Of a stretch of 25,097 bases of DNA, positions 5,859 to 24,427 are shown in pieces. The stretch is from assembly GCA_946479475.1 (NCBI GenBank), contig CAMLGG010000051.1, positions 1 to 25,097 on the forward strand. Direction: 5' to 3'. How positions within the stretch are numbered: the first letter of the stretch is position 1; each line of letters begins with the position of its first letter. Under the pieces are notes generated by a model. It had not been told where the DNA came from. It saw only the letters and a program-made list of their open reading frames with translations, and did not search any database. The stretch comes from an uncultured Ideonella sp. (GTDB lineage: Bacteria; Pseudomonadota; Gammaproteobacteria; Burkholderiales; Burkholderiaceae). Both the position numbers and the translations under genes were made by a program.

Positions 5859-7052
5859 TCAGGGTCCCGGCCCGAGCTGCTCGAGCTGCTGCTCCGCCTC
5901 CTGCACATCCTTGCCGTACTCGGCCAGGTAGCGGTTGCGCTCCTCGCTGGTCCACTCGGCATCGGAGAAGGCACTCAAGGGATAGCTGCGCGTCCGCCAG
6001 ACGGCGCCGGACCGGCGGGGCATCAGCGCACGGTCCGGGAAGGCGTCGGGCTTGAGCAGGAAGGCGTCGACGTCGCGCAGCGTCAGCGGGAACTCCGGCT
6101 GGCCATCGCGCAGGAGCTTGCCGAAGACCTGCAGGCGGATCTGCTGCGGGCCGGTCTGCAGCTCCTCGTTGAACGTGACCAGGGCGAAGGGCCGGCCGTT
6201 CGCATCATCGATGCGGCCGCTGGCCACGTAGCGGCCCGCCTTGAACACCTGCACCGGCAGGTACAGGGCGAGGGAGCCGTCCTCGAGCGTCTCGCGGATG
6301 GCGCCTGCCCAGTTCGCCGGCGCTTCGGGCGAGTAGATGATGTCGAAGTAGGCGTAGCCGGCGTGGTCGCCCGACTGCAGCGCCAGCTCGACGCGGATCA
6401 CGCCGTCGATCTCGGCCAGGCCCTGCGTGGCCGGCTGCAGGCGCAGGCTCAGCACGTTGTCGCCGGCTTTCGCGTCGCCGTTGCGGCCGTCGTCGGTGAA
6501 GCTCACCGCCATCGGGCTCACGCGCGATGCGCGCAGGCCGGTGGCGCCCTCGTGCGCGATGGCACGCGGCACCTCCAGGGGCAGCGTGCGGCCCTCGGCA
6601 TCCACCGCCGACACGGTGAACAGCACGCTCTCGTCGCCCTGGACGAAGACACGCTCCTGCGTGGTCCGCAAGGTCAGGCCCTCGATGACGGTGCCGCCCG
6701 GTTCTCGCAGGGGCCGCTCCTCGACGATCGGGTCGTTGGGGCGGACCTGGTCGGGATGCTCGGCGATGGGGCGCGACTCGTGCGGGTAACGCGTGGCCTG
6801 GCGGTAGCTGTCCAGGGTTCGCCTGGCACGCTTCAGGCGCTCGCGCCAGAGCTCGCGTTCGGCTTCGCTCGCTGGAGCCGCCACCCGCAGAGGGCGGGCC
6901 GCGGACGCGCTGGCCGCGACAGGCGCGACCGCCACCTGCGCCTGCGGCTCGGCCGGGAGCGCGGCGGCAGGCTCGTCCGCGGGCCAAAGCGCGAAGGCCA
7001 GCAGGGCGGCTGCCCCTGCAGCCGCGCCAGCCGCCATCCACCTTCCGTTCAC
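5859..7052 (-). CDS. Exported beta-rich protein, choice-of-anchor X-like
   Basis: A 397-residue protein of unknown function. It begins with a hydrophobic signal or anchor (residues 5-23), then a Pro/Ala linker to about 58 and a charged helix (ASEAERELWRERLKRARRTL). A characteristic segment around 86-112 (TRYPHESRPIAEHPDQ) follows. Residues 120-330 look like two Ig-like beta-sandwich units. The first ends in a possible Ca-binding loop DDGRNGDAKAGDN (187-199), a pattern I associate with choice-of-anchor X proteins; that assignment is from memory and moderate. The C-terminal 30 residues are a charged helix (ERNRYLAEYGKDVQEAEQQL). It begins 29 bp after the end of the upstream secreted protein, so the two are probably co-expressed and may work together at the cell surface. 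Confidence 0.72.
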   Translation of the reverse strand: MNGRWMAAGAAAGAAALLAFALWPADEPAAALPAEPQAQVAVAPVAASASAARPLRVAAPASEAERELWRERLKRARRTLDSYRQATRYPHESRPIAEHPDQVRPNDPIVEERPLREPGGTVIEGLTLRTTQERVFVQGDESVLFTVSAVDAEGRTLPLEVPRAIAHEGATGLRASRVSPMAVSFTDDGRNGDAKAGDNVLSLRLQPATQGLAEIDGVIRVELALQSGDHAGYAYFDIIYSPEAPANWAGAIRETLEDGSLALYLPVQVFKAGRYVASGRIDDANGRPFALVTFNEELQTGPQQIRLQVFGKLLRDGQPEFPLTLRDVDAFLLKPDAFPDRALMPRRSGAVWRTRSYPLSAFSDAEWTSEERNRYLAEYGKDVQEAEQQLEQLGPGP

Positions 7053-7081: not shown

Positions 7082-7978
7082 TCACCTGGCGTTCGCCTCC
7101 ATGTCCGCGCGCACCTTGCTCACGATGCCGGCCCAGTTGCCGTTCGTGTAGTGGTTGTACGACTCCTTGTCGTCACGGAAGGCGACCGAGTGGTAGCCCC
7201 ACTTGGCCTTGCCGTTCTCGGTCTTGGCGGTCCCGAGCGAGAGGTAGTTGCAGAACCAGTCGTTGGGGTTGCAGAAGGACCCGCCGCTGCTGCCCGAGAC
7301 GCCGCCGCTGGAGTGGTAGGCGATGGCCTCGTCGTCCTGGCCCGGCAGGACGAAGGAGTACAGCGTGCCGTTGGCCCCGGCGTACATGTTGAACCAGGTC
7401 GCGCGCGTGGCGCTGTGGTCGTACATCGCCCGGGCCGTGGCGGTCTTCAGGTCCGACACCAGCGGCTCGCTGATGGCCCAGTCGCCGGCATCGGCCAGCT
7501 CCGAGCCGCCGGCCGCCCCGCCGGCCACGTCGACCCACTTGATGTTCCAGCCGGTCTGCGTGCCGCCTGCATTGCCGCAGCTGCCGTCGGCGGCCGGGCT
7601 GGCGTTCTTGATGTAGCGCGTGGTGCCGCCGTAGAGCGACAGCGCGTAGCCGATCTGCAGGTCGCCGGCGCTGTGCACCGCCACGTAGCACCAGTTGGTG
7701 CCGGTGCAGTAGCAATCCAGCGCGTTTCGGATCAGGTAGTTCTGGTCGGACACATGGTTGTAGCCGTCCCAGTTGACCGACTTCTTGTTGACCCCGGCGT
7801 TGACGCTCGACGGGCCCCAGTAGCGAAAGTCGGCGTAGTTGCCGATCTGGCCGCCGCCGGTGCGGCCGTTGATCCACAGCGAGTGGTTGGTCGCATGTGC
7901 GATCGCGGCGAAGCCGACGGCCGCGACGGCCAGCCACGACAGAACCGGCCGCACCTTCCGAATCTTCCACGGGCCCAT
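7082..7978 (-). CDS. Secreted Cys/Trp-rich protein with a lipase-like serine motif
   Basis: A 298-residue secreted protein. The signal peptide spans about 1-29 (LSWLAVAAVGFAAIAHA). The mature part is rich in W, Y, N and G, with six cysteines (89, 91, 97, 134, 236, 243) that suggest disulfides. The segment CYVAVHSAGDLQIGYALSLYGG puts Ser103 in a V-H-S-A-G context like an alpha/beta-hydrolase nucleophile elbow with the first Gly replaced. A later stretch, LPGQDDEAIAYHSSGG (D215/D216, H222), resembles the acid-plus-serine region of secreted lipases. I infer a possible hydrolase, not a proven one. ATG 7978 has a good AGGAGA ribosome binding site; an upstream in-frame start at 8044 would bury the signal peptide. 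It leads the probable operon that runs to the peroxiredoxin. Confidence 0.72.
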   Translation of the reverse strand: MGPWKIRKVRPVLSWLAVAAVGFAAIAHATNHSLWINGRTGGGQIGNYADFRYWGPSSVNAGVNKKSVNWDGYNHVSDQNYLIRNALDCYCTGTNWCYVAVHSAGDLQIGYALSLYGGTTRYIKNASPAADGSCGNAGGTQTGWNIKWVDVAGGAAGGSELADAGDWAISEPLVSDLKTATARAMYDHSATRATWFNMYAGANGTLYSFVLPGQDDEAIAYHSSGGVSGSSGGSFCNPNDWFCNYLSLGTAKTENGKAKWGYHSVAFRDDKESYNHYTNGNWAGIVSKVRADMEANAR

Positions 7979-8094
7979 GCTCGTCTCCTGTCCTGTTGAA
8001 ATAGCACGATCGTTCGAAAACGTGCCCGCACACTTTGCTATCAAGCAGGACGGGAGACGGAGCGGGGAATCCCGGAAACCGGGCGATCAGCTCC

Positions 8095-18796: not shown

Positions 18797-18824
18797 AAAA
18801 AAAGCGCCCGGGGATGCCGGGCGC
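18797..18824 (-). terminator. Intrinsic terminator of the polyglycine-hydrolase-like gene
   Basis: Read on the minus strand, an 8-bp perfect stem (GCGCCCGG / CCGGGCGC) with a 5-nt loop is followed directly by seven T residues. It starts 30 nt after the stop codon of the gene at 18855 and lies 62 nt upstream of the usp start. Confidence 0.9.
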
Positions 18825-18854
18825 CAGGTCGGAGCAGGGAGCGTCGGGGATGGC

Positions 18855-20822
18855 TTACCAGGTCTTCAGCGCCTCCCGGATCTCGTCGCGGTACAGCTCG
18901 TTCGCCGCGTTGCTGTAGGCGTTGGTGTAGGTCGTGTCGTCGGCGCAGCCCCAGCAGCTCACCGGCGTGTCGGAGATGAGGCGGCCGAAGGCGTAGTCGC
19001 GGTAGGTCTGGCGGCCCAGGCTGTAGATCGGCAGGCGGATCAGGCCGGTGCCCGAGCGGACGATCACCTTGGTGCCGCAAGCGCCGTTCGCATCAGGCAG
19101 GCAGGTGCCGTAGCTGCCGCCCTTGCCCCAGGTGCGGATCAGCGAGCCGAACTGCGCCGCGATCGCCGACTTGCCCTGCTTGGCGGCCTCGTCGTTGATG
19201 ATGGCCTGCAGCGCGGCGCTGGCGCCGGAGGCGGGGTTGGCCGATTCCAGGAACTCGCTGCGGGCGTTGTTGGTGTTGGTCAGCAGCGTGTTGTTCCAGA
19301 CGCCCTCGTAGATGTGGGCCAGGTCGGCGGCCGTGGTGTCGTTGCGGCGGTTCGCCGGGTCGTACTTCTGGGTCTGCAGGTTCCAGTAGGCGCAGCCGAT
19401 GTTGTGGCGCAGCGTGGTGCCCGTGAGGCCGGCCGCGGCGGCGGTGGTGTTGAAGGGCGTGAAGCTGCCGCCATAGCGCAGGACGGTTCCGCGGGTCGTG
19501 CGGTTGTCGGAGATCGACATCATCTGGTCCAGGCCGGTCTCGAAGTTGTAGTTGTTCATCTGGTTGGCCGCGACTTCCTTGGCCGGATCCGGGCAGGCGT
19601 CCTTGCCGGCGTTCACGTCGTACTGGTAGTAGACGAAGGCGGAGTTCAGCACGTCGTTGCCGGCCTCGACCTGCTTCATCGAATGCAGCAGGTGCAGCGA
19701 CTTCAGCGAGCTGGCGGTCTCGGCGCGGCGGCCGCCGTTCAGGTCCACCTTGACCGGGCCGCTGACCTGCTTGAGGTAGGACTCGAAGATGCCCTTGGTC
19801 GGATTGCCGTTGGCGTCCAGGAAGGTCTTGCCCAGCAGGTCACGCATGCGGCGCGTCGACGAGTTGGCGTTGTCGATGAACACGGCGTCGTAGCGGCGGG
19901 TGCCGTTGCCGTCGACGTAGGTCGTGATGTCGACCGGGCGGGAGGCGACCTGCAGGCCGTAGTTGTTCAGGTCGGCCATCGAGGCGAAGCCGTACTGGTA
20001 CCACCAGGCCGAGGCGTCGGCGCCGGTGTTCTTCACCATGATGAAGTTGTAGCTGCCGCTGGCCTGGCGCTCGAGCTTGACGATGCGGCCCTGGAACGAA
20101 CTCAGCTTGCTGGCGATCGAGGCCGGCGTCTGGTTGAGCCACCACTGCCAGGTCTTGGCGTCGCTGCCGGTGTTGGCCACGAAGGCGGCGGTGTACTTCT
20201 TGACGCCACCTTCGGTGTAGCTGTCGATGTCGATCATCCGATGGCCGGTGTTGCTGATGTGGGTGCTGATCTGGGACGAGCTGACGCCCATCAGGTAGCT
20301 CCACGCACGAGCCGCGCCGCCGGTGTTCGACACCATGACCACGGCGAAGCGGATCTGGCCGCCGCCGGCGTCGTAGGGCTCGACCTCGATCAGGCGGCCG
20401 TTGTTCGCGCTGAGGTAGCTGCTCACCTGCGCGGCCGTCAGGCCGTAGTACCACCACCAGCCCGGCACGGCGTAGGCGCCGCTGTTGGCGACCATGCGCA
20501 CCGAGAAGCGCGGCACGCCGTTGCTGACCGAGTAGACCTCCAGGTCCGTCAGGCGGGCGCCGTTCTGGTTGATGTAGGTGCCGATCTGCGCGGCGGTGAC
20601 GTTGGTGTACGTCCACCAGCCGGTCGGCACGTTGACCGAGTGGTCGTCGGTCATCGCATTGGCGTCGAGGTTCTCGACACCCATCATCTGCTCTTGCTGG
20701 CCGTCGGCGGCGAGCGCCATCTCTTCGGCACGGGCCTGGCCCTGCACCATCATCCCGGCGGCCGCGGCGATCGCGGCCAGCACCAGCTTGGAACGGGACG
20801 GGTGGGCAATTCGGGTCTTCAT
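18855..20822 (-). CDS. Secreted tandem-repeat serine hydrolase, class A beta-lactamase fold (polyglycine-hydrolase-like)
   Basis: A 655-residue exported protein. The signal peptide covers about 1-32 (LVLAAIAAAAGMMVQGQARA). Residues 66-320 hold about five tandem repeats of roughly 47-55 residues, each with a W/Y start, a TAAQ-type helix, a (G/N)-R-hydrophobic turn and a closing strand ending in N-(T/S)-G; they match the bacterial tandem repeat (BTRD1-like) type. The C-terminal domain (about 325-655) has class A beta-lactamase signatures: S371-S-L-K374 (SxxK), S438-D-N440, E506-G-V-W-N510 (E-x3-N of the omega loop) and K567-G-G. Six cysteines may form disulfides. This is the layout of polyglycine-hydrolase-like proteins, so a protease or peptide hydrolase role is more likely than antibiotic resistance. 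ATG 20822 has a GGAGAG ribosome binding site. An intrinsic terminator follows. Confidence 0.85.
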   Translation of the reverse strand: MKTRIAHPSRSKLVLAAIAAAAGMMVQGQARAEEMALAADGQQEQMMGVENLDANAMTDDHSVNVPTGWWTYTNVTAAQIGTYINQNGARLTDLEVYSVSNGVPRFSVRMVANSGAYAVPGWWWYYGLTAAQVSSYLSANNGRLIEVEPYDAGGGQIRFAVVMVSNTGGAARAWSYLMGVSSSQISTHISNTGHRMIDIDSYTEGGVKKYTAAFVANTGSDAKTWQWWLNQTPASIASKLSSFQGRIVKLERQASGSYNFIMVKNTGADASAWWYQYGFASMADLNNYGLQVASRPVDITTYVDGNGTRRYDAVFIDNANSSTRRMRDLLGKTFLDANGNPTKGIFESYLKQVSGPVKVDLNGGRRAETASSLKSLHLLHSMKQVEAGNDVLNSAFVYYQYDVNAGKDACPDPAKEVAANQMNNYNFETGLDQMMSISDNRTTRGTVLRYGGSFTPFNTTAAAAGLTGTTLRHNIGCAYWNLQTQKYDPANRRNDTTAADLAHIYEGVWNNTLLTNTNNARSEFLESANPASGASAALQAIINDEAAKQGKSAIAAQFGSLIRTWGKGGSYGTCLPDANGACGTKVIVRSGTGLIRLPIYSLGRQTYRDYAFGRLISDTPVSCWGCADDTTYTNAYSNAANELYRDEIREALKTW

Positions 20823-20948
20823 GAAAGTCTCTCCGGGTCTCTGGGTTGGAAGGTCGGGGATAGCGGTTCGGGGTCCGAGGGGTCACGTTGTCGTGCCGCC
20901 CTACTTGACAATTCGCGGCCCTTCGCCGGGACCGGACAGGACGATCCC

Positions 20949-20976
20949 CCTACGCTTAGGCCCCCCGGATGGGGGG
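20949..20976. promoter_or_regulatory. Palindrome cluster upstream of the tandem-repeat hydrolase gene
   Basis: CCCCCC-GGAT-GGGGGG (20961-20976) is a perfect 6-bp inverted repeat, directly preceded by CCTA-CGCT-TAGG (20949-20960). A weaker CCGCC/GGCGG repeat lies at 20983-20997. The 190-bp gap separates the kinase stop from the hydrolase start. The palindromes could be an operator, or a weak transcript end for the kinase operon; no T-run follows. Confidence 0.35.
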
Positions 20977-21012: not shown

Positions 21013-23898
21013 TCAGAGCACGATGGCGACCGGCTTGGGCGCCTCGGTGCCGGCGAGCTCGCGATAGCGGTCGCGGGCCTGCCGCTCCACGGCCTCGGCC
21101 TCATCGGGCCGGCCGGAGGCGCGCAGCCACTGCGCGCGGACGATGGCCGCCAGCGGCTGCTCGGGATGCGCAGCGGCATGGTGGTCGCGCAGCAGCTTCT
21201 CGGCGCTGGCGATCGGCGCCTGCGCCCGCTCAGGCTCACCCGCGGCCAGCCAGGCCAGTGCTTCGGTGAGCTGGGCGCGGGCGATGCCCAGCTGGCCCAT
21301 CGCCCCGAAGGAGGCACCCGACTCGCGCCAGGCCTCGACCGAGGCGTGCGCGGCCTCGGCGCCCTCACGGGCCCTGCCGAGCGCCGTCAGCGCGCCTGCG
21401 CGCAGCATCATCGAGCTGGCGTGTCGCGTGTCCCTCTGGCCCGCGGCGTCTTCCTGGGCGATGAGCTCGTCGAGCCAGTGCAGGGCCTCGGCCGGCTTGC
21501 CGTTGACCAGCAGCGCCGAGGCGAGGCGGCGGATGAAGCCCCGGGCCTCGGAAGCCGACAGCGTCGAGCCCGGCCGCCGCGCCAGGCGCACCGACTCGCG
21601 CGCCACCGACTCTGCGGCCGGCCCGCGGCCGAGGCGGTTCAGCGCCATCACCTCGAACGACAGGTTCAAGGCGGTCTCGCTGTCCTCCGGCCCGTAGACG
21701 TAGCGCGAGCGCTCGACGTTGTTCGCGAACACCTCGTCGGCGCGGCGGTAGTTGCCGCTGTCGAGATAGGCCATGCCCAGGGTGCGGTTGGCCTGCACCG
21801 ACAGGGTGTTGTGCGGCCCCGCCAGGAGGTCGAGCTCGCCCACGGCTCGTTCCAGCGTGCGGATCGCCTCGGGGAACAGGCGCAGCTGCCATTGGGTGTA
21901 GCCGACGTCCGCGCGCAGCGTGGCAGCGCCCATGCCCTCGGTGCGCCAGTCCTTCTGCAGCAGGGGCTCGAGCTCGCGCAGCGCGGCGCGCGCCTCCTCG
22001 TGCCGGCCCTGGCTGGCCAGCGAGGTGGCGATGCGCACCCGGGTGATGGCCACTTCGAAGCTCTCGGCGCCGTGGCGGGCGGCGAGCACCGGCAGTTCGG
22101 CCTGCAGGGCCTTGCGCCCTTCCTCGTAGCGGCCCAGGTCGAGGAGGTTGTCGGCCGTCGACAGGCGCAGCGTCGTCAGCTCGTCCGCGGCCCCGCGGCC
22201 CAGGCCCTGCAGCATCGGCCGCGCCGCGGCCAGCGTGGCGAGCGAAGCCTCGTGCTGGCCCAGCGACTTCTGCACGTCGGCCAGCGCCAGCAGCGCGCGC
22301 GCATGCTCCAGGCTGCCTTCGCCATGGCTGCGGCCCATCGTCGCGACGCGCGCCTGCGCCAGGGGCAGCGCGCGCTTGCCGTCGCCGAGCTTGAGGTAGA
22401 GGTCGACCAGCACGCCGCTCATCGCCGCATGGAGATCGGGCTCGCCGCCCAGCTTGGCCTGCAGGTCGCGCTCGCCGCGGGCCAGCAGGTCGCGCACGGT
22501 GAGCTCGCGGCCCTGGGCGCGAGCCGGGTCGGCCTCGTTGAACAGGCCGACGAGGAAGTCCTGCACCGCGTGGGTCCGGGCCCCCTCGCGCCGCGCGGCC
22601 GCGGCCTGGTCCAGCGCGACCGCCAGGCCGACCAGCAGGCCGCCCGTGGCGAGCGCCATGCCGGCCACCGGCAGCTTGTGACGCTGCACGAACTTGGCAG
22701 CGCGGTAGCTCCAGCTGGGAGGGTGGGCGTGGACCGGCCGGTTGCGCAGCCAGCGCTTGAGATCCTGCTTGAAGGCCTCGGCCGACGGGTAGCGCTCGGC
22801 GGGGCTCTTGCGCAGCGCCATGAGGGCGATGTTGTCCAGGTCCCCGCGCAGCTGGCGCCGCAGGACGGCCGGGCGCGACGCGCGGTGCGCGGCGGCGCTC
22901 TCGGTGGCCGTCATGCGGCTGGGCTTGGTGGGCTGGGTGCCCAGGATCGCTTCCTCGAGCGCGCCTCGCGTCTCGCGTGGGAGCCGGTAGGGCCGCTGGC
23001 CGGTGCAGAGCTCGTAGAAGACGACGCCGAGCGAGTAGACGTCGGACGCGGTGCCGATGGCCTGGTGGGCGATCTGCTCGGGCGAGGCGTAGTCGGGCGT
23101 CAAGGGCGCATGGGCCCACTCGGTGCGGACCGGCGCCTCGGCGGCTTCGCCCTCGTCCAGCAGCGTGGCGATGCCGAAGTCCAGCAGGCGGACCTGGCCG
23201 TCGAGCGTGACGAAGATGTTCGAGGGCTTGAGGTCGCGGTGCACCACCAGCCGGGCGTGGGCGTACTGGATGGCCTCCAGCACCTGCAGGAACAGGTCGA
23301 CGCGGGCGCGCAGGGGCAGCTGACGCGAGTCGCAGTAGACCGTGATCGGCTGGCCCTCGACGTACTCCAGCGCCAGCCAGGGCTGGCCGTCCTCGGTGAT
23401 GCCGGCGTCGTAGAGCCGGGCGATATGCGGATGCTCCAGCGTGGCGAGGATGTCGCGCTCGCGCTCGAAGCGATGAGCCAGCGCAGGTTGGCGCAGGATG
23501 GCGCTGTGGGGCAGCTTCAGGGCCACGGCGCGCTGCAGCGTGCCATCGACCCGCTCCGCCAGCCACACCGTGCCCATGCCGCCCTCGCCGAGCTGCCGCA
23601 GCAGGCAGTAGGGGCCGATGCGGCGCGTGCCGGGCGCGGCGTCGGCCAGGCGGGCCTCGGCGGCCTGGCCGGCGAGCTGGGGCAGGGCGTCCAGCACGTC
23701 GAGCGGGCCGGCGACCGTGGCGCCCCCGGCGTCTTCCACGGCCATCTCCTGCAGCATGGCCTCCAGGCGCGGGCGCAGGGTGGCATCGACCGTCCCGAGC
23801 TGCTCCAGCCAGGCGGCACGGTCTTCGGGCGGCAGGTCCAGCGCCTGGTCCAGCAGCTCGGACAGGCGAGCCAGCTCGGCGCGGGCGAGCGAAGACAT
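21013..23898 (-). CDS. Transmembrane Ser/Thr protein kinase with TPR-like C-terminal region (PknS-like)
   Basis: A 961-residue kinase. A helical N-terminal segment (1-90) precedes a Hanks-type kinase domain (about 95-380): Gly loop GEGGMG 104-109, VAIK-type Lys128, Glu147, HRDLKPSN with Asp222, DFG 240-242 and SPE 272-274. All catalytic residues are present, so it should be active. One transmembrane helix follows at about 409-429 (LPVAGMALATGGLLVGLAVA). The 530-residue C-terminal part consists of helical pairs with TPR spacing (for example HARALLALADVQKSLGQHEA), probably periplasmic and sensory. ATG 23898 begins one base after the sigma factor stop, so the two genes are translationally coupled. 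Kinases linked in this way to ECF43-type sigma factors (PknS, PknT) activate them by phosphorylation. Confidence 0.92.
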   Translation of the reverse strand: MSSLARAELARLSELLDQALDLPPEDRAAWLEQLGTVDATLRPRLEAMLQEMAVEDAGGATVAGPLDVLDALPQLAGQAAEARLADAAPGTRRIGPYCLLRQLGEGGMGTVWLAERVDGTLQRAVALKLPHSAILRQPALAHRFERERDILATLEHPHIARLYDAGITEDGQPWLALEYVEGQPITVYCDSRQLPLRARVDLFLQVLEAIQYAHARLVVHRDLKPSNIFVTLDGQVRLLDFGIATLLDEGEAAEAPVRTEWAHAPLTPDYASPEQIAHQAIGTASDVYSLGVVFYELCTGQRPYRLPRETRGALEEAILGTQPTKPSRMTATESAAAHRASRPAVLRRQLRGDLDNIALMALRKSPAERYPSAEAFKQDLKRWLRNRPVHAHPPSWSYRAAKFVQRHKLPVAGMALATGGLLVGLAVALDQAAAARREGARTHAVQDFLVGLFNEADPARAQGRELTVRDLLARGERDLQAKLGGEPDLHAAMSGVLVDLYLKLGDGKRALPLAQARVATMGRSHGEGSLEHARALLALADVQKSLGQHEASLATLAAARPMLQGLGRGAADELTTLRLSTADNLLDLGRYEEGRKALQAELPVLAARHGAESFEVAITRVRIATSLASQGRHEEARAALRELEPLLQKDWRTEGMGAATLRADVGYTQWQLRLFPEAIRTLERAVGELDLLAGPHNTLSVQANRTLGMAYLDSGNYRRADEVFANNVERSRYVYGPEDSETALNLSFEVMALNRLGRGPAAESVARESVRLARRPGSTLSASEARGFIRRLASALLVNGKPAEALHWLDELIAQEDAAGQRDTRHASSMMLRAGALTALGRAREGAEAAHASVEAWRESGASFGAMGQLGIARAQLTEALAWLAAGEPERAQAPIASAEKLLRDHHAAAHPEQPLAAIVRAQWLRASGRPDEAEAVERQARDRYRELAGTEAPKPVAIVL

Positions 23899-23899
23899 G

Positions 23900-24427
23900 C
23901 TATTGCAGGACGGCCTTGAGCAGCAGCCGCGCCTTTTGCCAGTCGCGCCGCACGGTCCGGTCCGTGATGCCGAGCGCCTGGGCGATGGAGACCTCGTCGA
24001 GCCCGGCGAAGCAGCGCATCTCGACGATGCGGGCCAGGCGGTCGTCGACCTGCGCGAGCTCCTCGATCGCATCGTGGATGCGCACCACGTCGTCGTCCTT
24101 GACCGAGATCGACTCGGCGATGTCGGTGTTCAGCGTGACGTGCAGCTGGTCGCCGCCGCGGCGCTCGGCGTGGCGCTGGCGGACGAAGTCGATCACCACG
24201 AAGCGCATGACGCGGGCGGCATAGGCGAGGAACTGGCCCTGCGTCATGCCGCCCAGGTCGCTCTGGTGCTGGAACCTGAGATACGACTCGTGCACCAGCG
24301 CCGTGGTGTCCAGCATGGTGATGTTCTCGCTGCGGCGCAGGCGCGAGCTCGCCAGGCGGCGCAGGTCCTGGTACATCTGCCGGAACAGTTCGTCGGGCGT
24401 GTCCGGCGCCGGGGCTAGGGGGTCCAT
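23900..24427 (-). CDS. ECF sigma factor, ECF43-like, paired with a Ser/Thr kinase
   Basis: A 175-residue extracytoplasmic-function sigma factor. Region sigma-2 spans about 12-88, with TALVHESYLRFQHQ and the -10-binding helix FLAYAARVMRFVVIDFVR. A linker follows, then region sigma-4 at about 115-172 with helix-turn-helix EVSIAQALGITDRTVRRDW. Where ordinary ECF sigma factors have the acidic DAED motif, this one has D40-T-T-A, as in kinase-dependent ECF43 sigma factors in which a phosphothreonine replaces the missing charge. No anti-sigma factor is adjacent, which agrees with that mode. The gene starts 42 bp after an ABC permease gene and ends one base before the kinase start. A clear Shine-Dalgarno is not visible. 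Confidence 0.92.
   Translation of the reverse strand: MDPLAPAPDTPDELFRQMYQDLRRLASSRLRRSENITMLDTTALVHESYLRFQHQSDLGGMTQGQFLAYAARVMRFVVIDFVRQRHAERRGGDQLHVTLNTDIAESISVKDDDVVRIHDAIEELAQVDDRLARIVEMRCFAGLDEVSIAQALGITDRTVRRDWQKARLLLKAVLQ

Follow-up and report, generated by a model that had tools for sequence, protein, structure and literature searches.

What does an exported hydrolase made of a repeat barrel and a beta-lactamase-like domain do beside a kinase and a sigma factor, and what switches it on? The question is raised by a 25,097-nucleotide stretch from an uncultured Ideonella sp. (GenBank assembly GCA_946479475.1, contig CAMLGG010000051.1, positions 1 to 25,097; hereafter 'the window'), for which a preliminary description had proposed a secreted five-repeat protein with an intact class A active site, a likeness to fungal polyglycine hydrolases and a possible link to a kinase/sigma module. 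We find that the hydrolase is a real, conserved, two-domain and apparently exported protein. Its probable role is to cut peptides in response to a signal, not to confer antibiotic resistance, and the sigma switch next to it is a probable dedicated one. We give about an even chance to the full statement that it is a secreted serine peptidase expressed in response to a signal.

The gene and its export signal are as follows.

18855..20822 (minus strand): hydrolase gene, 655 amino acids, BTRD1 barrel plus class A/PBP-A-type serine hydrolase (open reading frame, Pfam and motifs)
20727..20822 (minus strand): Sec-type signal peptide, residues 1–32, with a basic start, LVLAAIAAAAGMM core and ARA cleavage site (by eye)

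The reading frame, for which the preliminary description named no strand, is supported by a third-codon-position guanine-cytosine content of 0.96, and the residues quoted there for the active site (S371/K374, S438DN440, E506/N510 and K567GG) all stand where they were said to be. The expected resemblance to BTRD1 and Beta-lactamase2 was also borne out: Pfam finds BTRD1 (PF17660) at 34.3 bits (cut-off 23) in four stretches and Beta-lactamase2 (PF13354) at 45 bits (cut-off 22), and leaves a galactose-oxidase-like match under threshold (24 bits, cut-off 25). A phmmer search of the protein (P0002 in our set) against the PDB returned a photolyase as its sole match (E 0.23), and a hydropathy scan with a 19-residue window found no segment above 1.5. 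Throughout, conservation is counted in a 77-row alignment of relatives. Cysteines are conserved at 410 and 477 in all 77 rows and at 574 and 582 in 76, a pattern that would fit an exported, disulphide-bonded hydrolase.

About five tandem repeats had been seen at residues 66–320, and structure prediction gives five EHEE units at residues 69–317; the borders below, from the predicted structure, were set by eye.

20469..20624 (minus strand): repeat 1, residues 67–118
20313..20468 (minus strand): repeat 2, residues 119–170; 15 of 52 columns invariant, the most of all five
20160..20312 (minus strand): repeat 3, residues 171–221
20016..20159 (minus strand): repeat 4, residues 222–269
19863..20015 (minus strand): repeat 5, residues 270–320

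The only clear structural match of the predicted N-terminal domain is the polyglycine hydrolase structure 7tpu, at 14% identity over the barrel. With the full-length protein, Foldseek aligns 7tpu across 690 columns including gaps (E 8.4e-9).

The second domain carries the catalytic motifs.

18858..19862 (minus strand): serine hydrolase domain, class A/PBP-A fold, residues 321–655 (Pfam and structure comparison)
19701..19712 (minus strand): S371-x-x-K374 (SLK after S371), nucleophile motif; invariant in 77 of 77 rows
19503..19511 (minus strand): S438-D439-N440; invariant in 77 of 77 rows
19380..19382 (minus strand): N481, best equivalent of Glu166 in class A enzymes; Asn in 73 of 77 rows
19293..19307 (minus strand): E506-GVW-N510, in the helix that follows the omega loop and distinct from the Glu166 motif
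19116..19124 (minus strand): K567-G-G, third motif

The class A fold and the order SxxK, SDN, KGG are thus both present. The third motif of class A enzymes is usually KTG or KSG; it is KGG here and KSG in a distant relative (L012), with K567 kept in 75 rows and G569 in all 77. E506 is kept in 75 rows (D or A in the other two) and N510 in 65. Two relatives, P0029 and P0042, retain SxxK and SDN but have lost the lysine of the third motif; P0042 and P0016, both named Ideonella sp. DXS29W and on contigs of equal length, may be paralogues.

Of the supposedly intact class A set, the SxxK, SDN and KGG order and the fold therefore stand, whereas the ExxxN string, although real, was misassigned: the pairing of E506 and N510 with Glu166 and Asn170 is contradicted by three sequence registers and by the predicted helices. 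On the class A profile NF033103, residues 358–519 align with profile positions 25–173 and score 20.5 bits, where 200 are required; the positive control, the class A locus L030, scores 343.9 bits. The control places Ser70, Ser130, Glu166 and Lys234 at profile positions 38, 98, 134 and 202 (a script located Glu166 in L030 alone of five loci tried and found no motif in two), and E506 falls near position 160, about 26 after Glu166, if the last 13 positions are gap-free. The Pfam Beta-lactamase2 register agrees under the same assumption (hydrolase 349–521 on 3–159; L030 97–313 on 1–213, with Glu at 217). A weak hhalign alignment of the C-terminal domain with 25 class A sequences (probability 0.5%, E 0.12) pairs N481 with Glu166 and Q485 with Asn170. 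Among the predicted helices, SDN lies between 427–436 and 440–449, the omega region spans about 464–497, and E506 sits within the helix 498–509; by eye, L012 has I for E506 while SxxK, SDN and KSG are kept. The hydrolase has no Glu within residues 464–497. Relatives have one there in 24 of 77 rows, 6 of them at column 483 and 18 at column 488, and none at 481. Resting on sequence profiles and predicted helices rather than measured distances, N481 is the best register for a Glu166 counterpart, not a proven one. By conservation, candidates for the deacylating residue are the invariant His473 and Tyr479 and residue 488.

PBP-A offers a precedent. PMC11189452 describes its active site as Ser61-Lys64, Ser122-Asn124, Leu158 and Lys219-Asp222, without a Glu166 equivalent; the 36 residues from Ser122 to Leu158 equal the distance from Ser130 to Glu166 in class A. 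Since PBP-A lacks the same Glu and has Leu158 at equal spacing, the chemistry of the hydrolase would resemble that of PBP-A. The two proteins (Thermosynechococcus PBP-A, PDB 2j7v and related entries) share 17–18% identity, and PBP-A is shorter (264–274 residues) and has no repeat barrel. With class A beta-lactamases (TLA, PER, GES, TEM, LRA-5) the hydrolase shares the fold and the motif order, but it differs in the missing Glu, in KGG for KTG/KSG, in its large N-terminal domain and in its low NF033103 score. The likeness to polyglycine hydrolases holds for the barrel and fails for the catalytic domain, which belongs to another class. The predicted model shares with the fungal enzymes (Fvan-cmp, PDB 7tpu) a five-EHEE barrel followed by a C-terminal SxxK serine beta-lactamase-fold domain; in contrast to them it is bacterial, has a class A/PBP-A-type site (SDN, KGG) and adjoins a sigma-kinase module. 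The fungal site is class C-like, with a Tyr150 analogue and a partly missing third motif, and these enzymes have no nitrocefin activity (PMC9912923). Hence, the hydrolase is not a polyglycine hydrolase by membership, although it may work like one. The function of the barrel is described as an open question, with most predicted structures bacterial (PMC9912923), and in the accessible portion of the open-licence literature we found no experiment on a bacterial barrel member; PF17660 is mentioned there in a modelling table.

The link to the kinase/sigma module, first only suggested, has been strengthened by gene order, a conserved element and co-occurrence.

23900..24427 (minus strand): extracytoplasmic function (ECF) sigma factor, ECF43-like, with D40-T-T-A43 for the acidic DxxD/DAED motif
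21013..23898 (minus strand): Hanks-type Ser/Thr kinase, PknS-like, with one hydrophobic segment near residue 470 and C-terminal TPRs (Pfam, hydropathy)

The sigma factor passes TIGR02999 (148.5 bits, cut-off 126.15), and its DTTA at residues 40–43 is DTTA or DTTS in four relatives. The kinase frame opens at 24072, and by eye its likely start is 23898, directly after the sigma gene. According to PMC13147305 and PMC8999054, ECF43 members carry QTTA or STTA, the Thr is phosphorylated by a partner kinase, and the known pairs govern responses to an amoeba predator or polymyxin. The window's pair shares with EcfK-PknS and EcfP-PknT the adjoining kinase, the PknS-like layout (N-terminal kinase, one hydrophobic segment, C-terminal TPRs) and TTA in region 2.2; it differs in DTTA rather than QTTA/STTA and in a candidate target that is one secreted hydrolase instead of a type VI secretion system or polymyxin resistance.

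A sigma-kinase pair lies directly upstream on the same strand in the window and in 4 of 13 hydrolase loci (L001, L002, L004, L005), and L003 has a kinase tail at its contig end. The Piscinibacter loci L008 (5559–6428) and L010 (3694–5004) have a Tll0287-like/HAMP protein and a different Ser/Thr kinase before the hydrolase. The other six loci, several of them on short contigs, show no sigma-kinase pair directly upstream; in L011 the other strand carries a weak match to a kinase. Two loci have a further, divergent sigma-kinase pair on the opposite strand just past the first (L004:1–1140, L005:1540–3862).

Footprinting between kinase and hydrolase revealed a candidate promoter, and two further features flank the gene.

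20909..20938 (minus strand): TGTCCGGT-N15-CGAATTG, conserved, candidate ECF promoter
20949..20960 (minus strand): palindrome CCTAAGCGTAGG, possible regulator site, 10 bases before the element
18803..18825 (minus strand): intrinsic-terminator-like hairpin with a T-run, just past the hydrolase stop codon

In the window the element stops 86 bases upstream of the start codon, with TAGG at 20900–20903, five bases beyond it. Both are unchanged between the window and five loci, although most other kinase-hydrolase intergenic sequence has drifted. Exact copies occur once each in all five genomes with the sigma-kinase locus and are absent from three other hydrolase-bearing genomes: G003, which has a different kinase upstream, and G005 and G008, which have no module in view. 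Within the genus, the same 5 of 16 genomes hold the element, the hydrolase and a sigma factor that is at least 70% identical (70, 71, 72, 88 and 90%), whereas the next-best sigma match in any genus genome is 57%; the five hydrolase-bearing genomes have two to six sigma-factor matches each, the close one included. Allowing up to two mismatches, the five genomes give 21 sites against 14 for the reversed pattern, five of them exact and none with one mismatch, so no wider regulon is visible. By eye, no shared element stands upstream of the sigma gene.

The palindrome was also considered, as CCTA-N4-TAGG, for a terminator of the kinase gene; no T-run follows it. A related CCCCTA-N4-TGGGGG site occupies the same place in L001, L003, L004 and L005, and CCCCTA-N4-TRGGGG occurs in 0–4 rows per genome against 0–2 for the reversed pattern in five genomes; it is possibly a regulator site. 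For the hairpin, one was found against a shuffle mean of 1.4, and its support is therefore its place after the stop codon.

From these parts we propose the following sequence of events. By analogy with ECF43 systems, the TPR region would let the membrane kinase sense a signal from the envelope or from outside, and the kinase would phosphorylate the Thr in DTTA of the adjoining sigma factor. The activated sigma factor would then read TGTCCGGT-N15-CGAATTG, as the footprinting supports, and transcribe the hydrolase gene up to the hairpin. The product would leave the cytoplasm through Sec, its predicted five-repeat barrel may hold the target, and Ser371, aided by Lys374, Ser438 and Lys567, would to judge from the motifs attack a flexible peptide bond. 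The likely substrate is a peptide rich in small residues, either within a protein linker or in a muropeptide. Without Glu166, the hydrolase would behave like PBP-A and the fungal proteases and unlike a beta-lactamase. We regard as tentative, and somewhat doubtful, the more specific idea of a one-enzyme regulon, in which a phosphorylation-activated ECF sigma factor serves a single promoter and so fires a secreted peptidase that represents a new catalytic subtype, its barrel and Glu166-less PBP-A-type domain having been joined independently of the fungal class C-type fusion.

Several observations weigh against this proposal. Column 488 in the omega region is acidic in 61 of 77 rows (Asp 43, Glu 18), and residue 488 could act as a base of its own. 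The omega-loop registers (hhalign and class A profile) are weak; the profile built from the 25 class A sequences reaches a best E of 0.048 among 121 family proteins and aligns the hydrolase around the nucleophile only, not at the omega loop. The sigma factor keeps D40, the first acidic residue of DxxD. Because those five loci themselves served to select the element, the evidence it adds is limited to its absence from 11 other genomes, the single exact copies and the copy in the window, and because the sigma and hydrolase genes are linked, their joint presence can be simple linkage. Moreover, in 10 of 10 relatives that show no such module the best site has 3–7 mismatches of 15 (500 bases around a partly approximate gene start), so the hydrolase does not depend on the switch everywhere.

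The nearest competitors are two narrow forms of the small-residue-rich-peptide reading. The gene product could be a PBP-A-like DD-peptidase that works in the periplasm and trims peptidoglycan of the cell itself, with the barrel docked on the wall and the kinase-sigma pair answering wall stress. We consider this unlikely: Pfam finds no wall-binding domain and the hydropathy scan no membrane segment, the closest barrel is that of a protease acting on proteins, and the gene is patchy (5 of 299 family genomes), unlike a housekeeping wall enzyme. A true equivalent of polyglycine hydrolase, cutting Gly-Gly linkers in another organism's secreted proteins for defence or competition, would account for the barrel fold and the domain order seen in 7tpu, and the amoeba and polymyxin responses known for ECF43 pairs agree with it. 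It is nevertheless distinctly unlikely, given a class A-type site in place of the class C-type one with its Tyr150 analogue and partial third motif, and no known target near the gene. Use against a host, prey or competitor, as raised in the preliminary description, is speculative.

Antibiotic resistance and sensing fare worse. A class A beta-lactamase protecting against beta-lactams would fit the fold, two of the motifs, the 'beta-lactamase class A' source names of some relatives among the matches listed and the frequent acid at column 488, but the NF033103 score is about a tenth of the cut-off, the Glu166 place is without Glu, and polyglycine hydrolases with the same barrel do not act on nitrocefin (PMC9912923), which leaves this reading a very slim chance. 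That the protein is a non-catalytic binder or a penicillin sensor feeding the kinase is improbable: its gene does adjoin that of a membrane kinase whose TPR region is probably outside and the third-motif Lys is lost in 2 of 77 rows, but SxxK and SDN are conserved as in an enzyme, and a candidate promoter element of its own precedes the gene, with a hairpin behind it. The signal-switched secreted peptidase remains our preferred reading.

At E ≤ 0.001, 445 of 7,998 candidates scored match the hydrolase. The 13 loci in genome contigs come from Ideonella, Piscinibacter, Rubrivivax, Vitreoscilla, other Burkholderiales, a beta proteobacterium, Methyloglobulus, Methylomonas and an unplaced proteobacterium, the last (L013) matching residues 52–385 only. 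Taken relative to the Ideonella alba genome G001, the family profile detects the gene in one genome among 274 sharing its class, in five among 299 sharing its family and in five among 16 sharing its genus; at this sensitivity its distribution is patchy. No relative was found in plasmid and phage collections at E 1e-5. A single-repeat Pfam probe detected BTRD1 in 5 of 398 phylum genomes and in 0 of 200 order genomes, one known carrier among the latter; as it recovers 3 of 8 known carrier genomes, we draw no abundance estimate from its counts. In three of the five positive phylum genomes, the frames examined place the barrel elsewhere: one has five BTRD1 stretches with Peptidase_M23 in reversed domain order (L072:1036–2868), another has five with Peptidase_C70, which is papain-like (L070:412–1710), and a third has two with a start resembling a twin-arginine translocation signal that scores under cut-off. 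The first two share with the hydrolase the five BTRD1 stretches and a peptidase domain, while the catalytic domains are unrelated, which suggests that the barrel is a mobile targeting part of exported hydrolases. Elsewhere in the window, two minus-strand frames (7082–8044 and 5859–7052) have coding-like composition and no Pfam match at E 1e-5.

As the family has no Glu at the Glu166 place, 'beta-lactamase class A' names in it should not count as resistance without an assay. With a single sigma factor and a single promoter as its candidate target, the locus offers a small system for studying kinase-activated sigma factors. The occurrence of the barrel on a catalytic domain other than the fungal one here and on M23 and C70 peptidases elsewhere points to substrate targeting, which can be tested with barrels alone. 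If the one-enzyme regulon is real, the barrel would be a general peptide-targeting module across at least three unrelated hydrolase folds: the serine beta-lactamase fold, M23 and C70.
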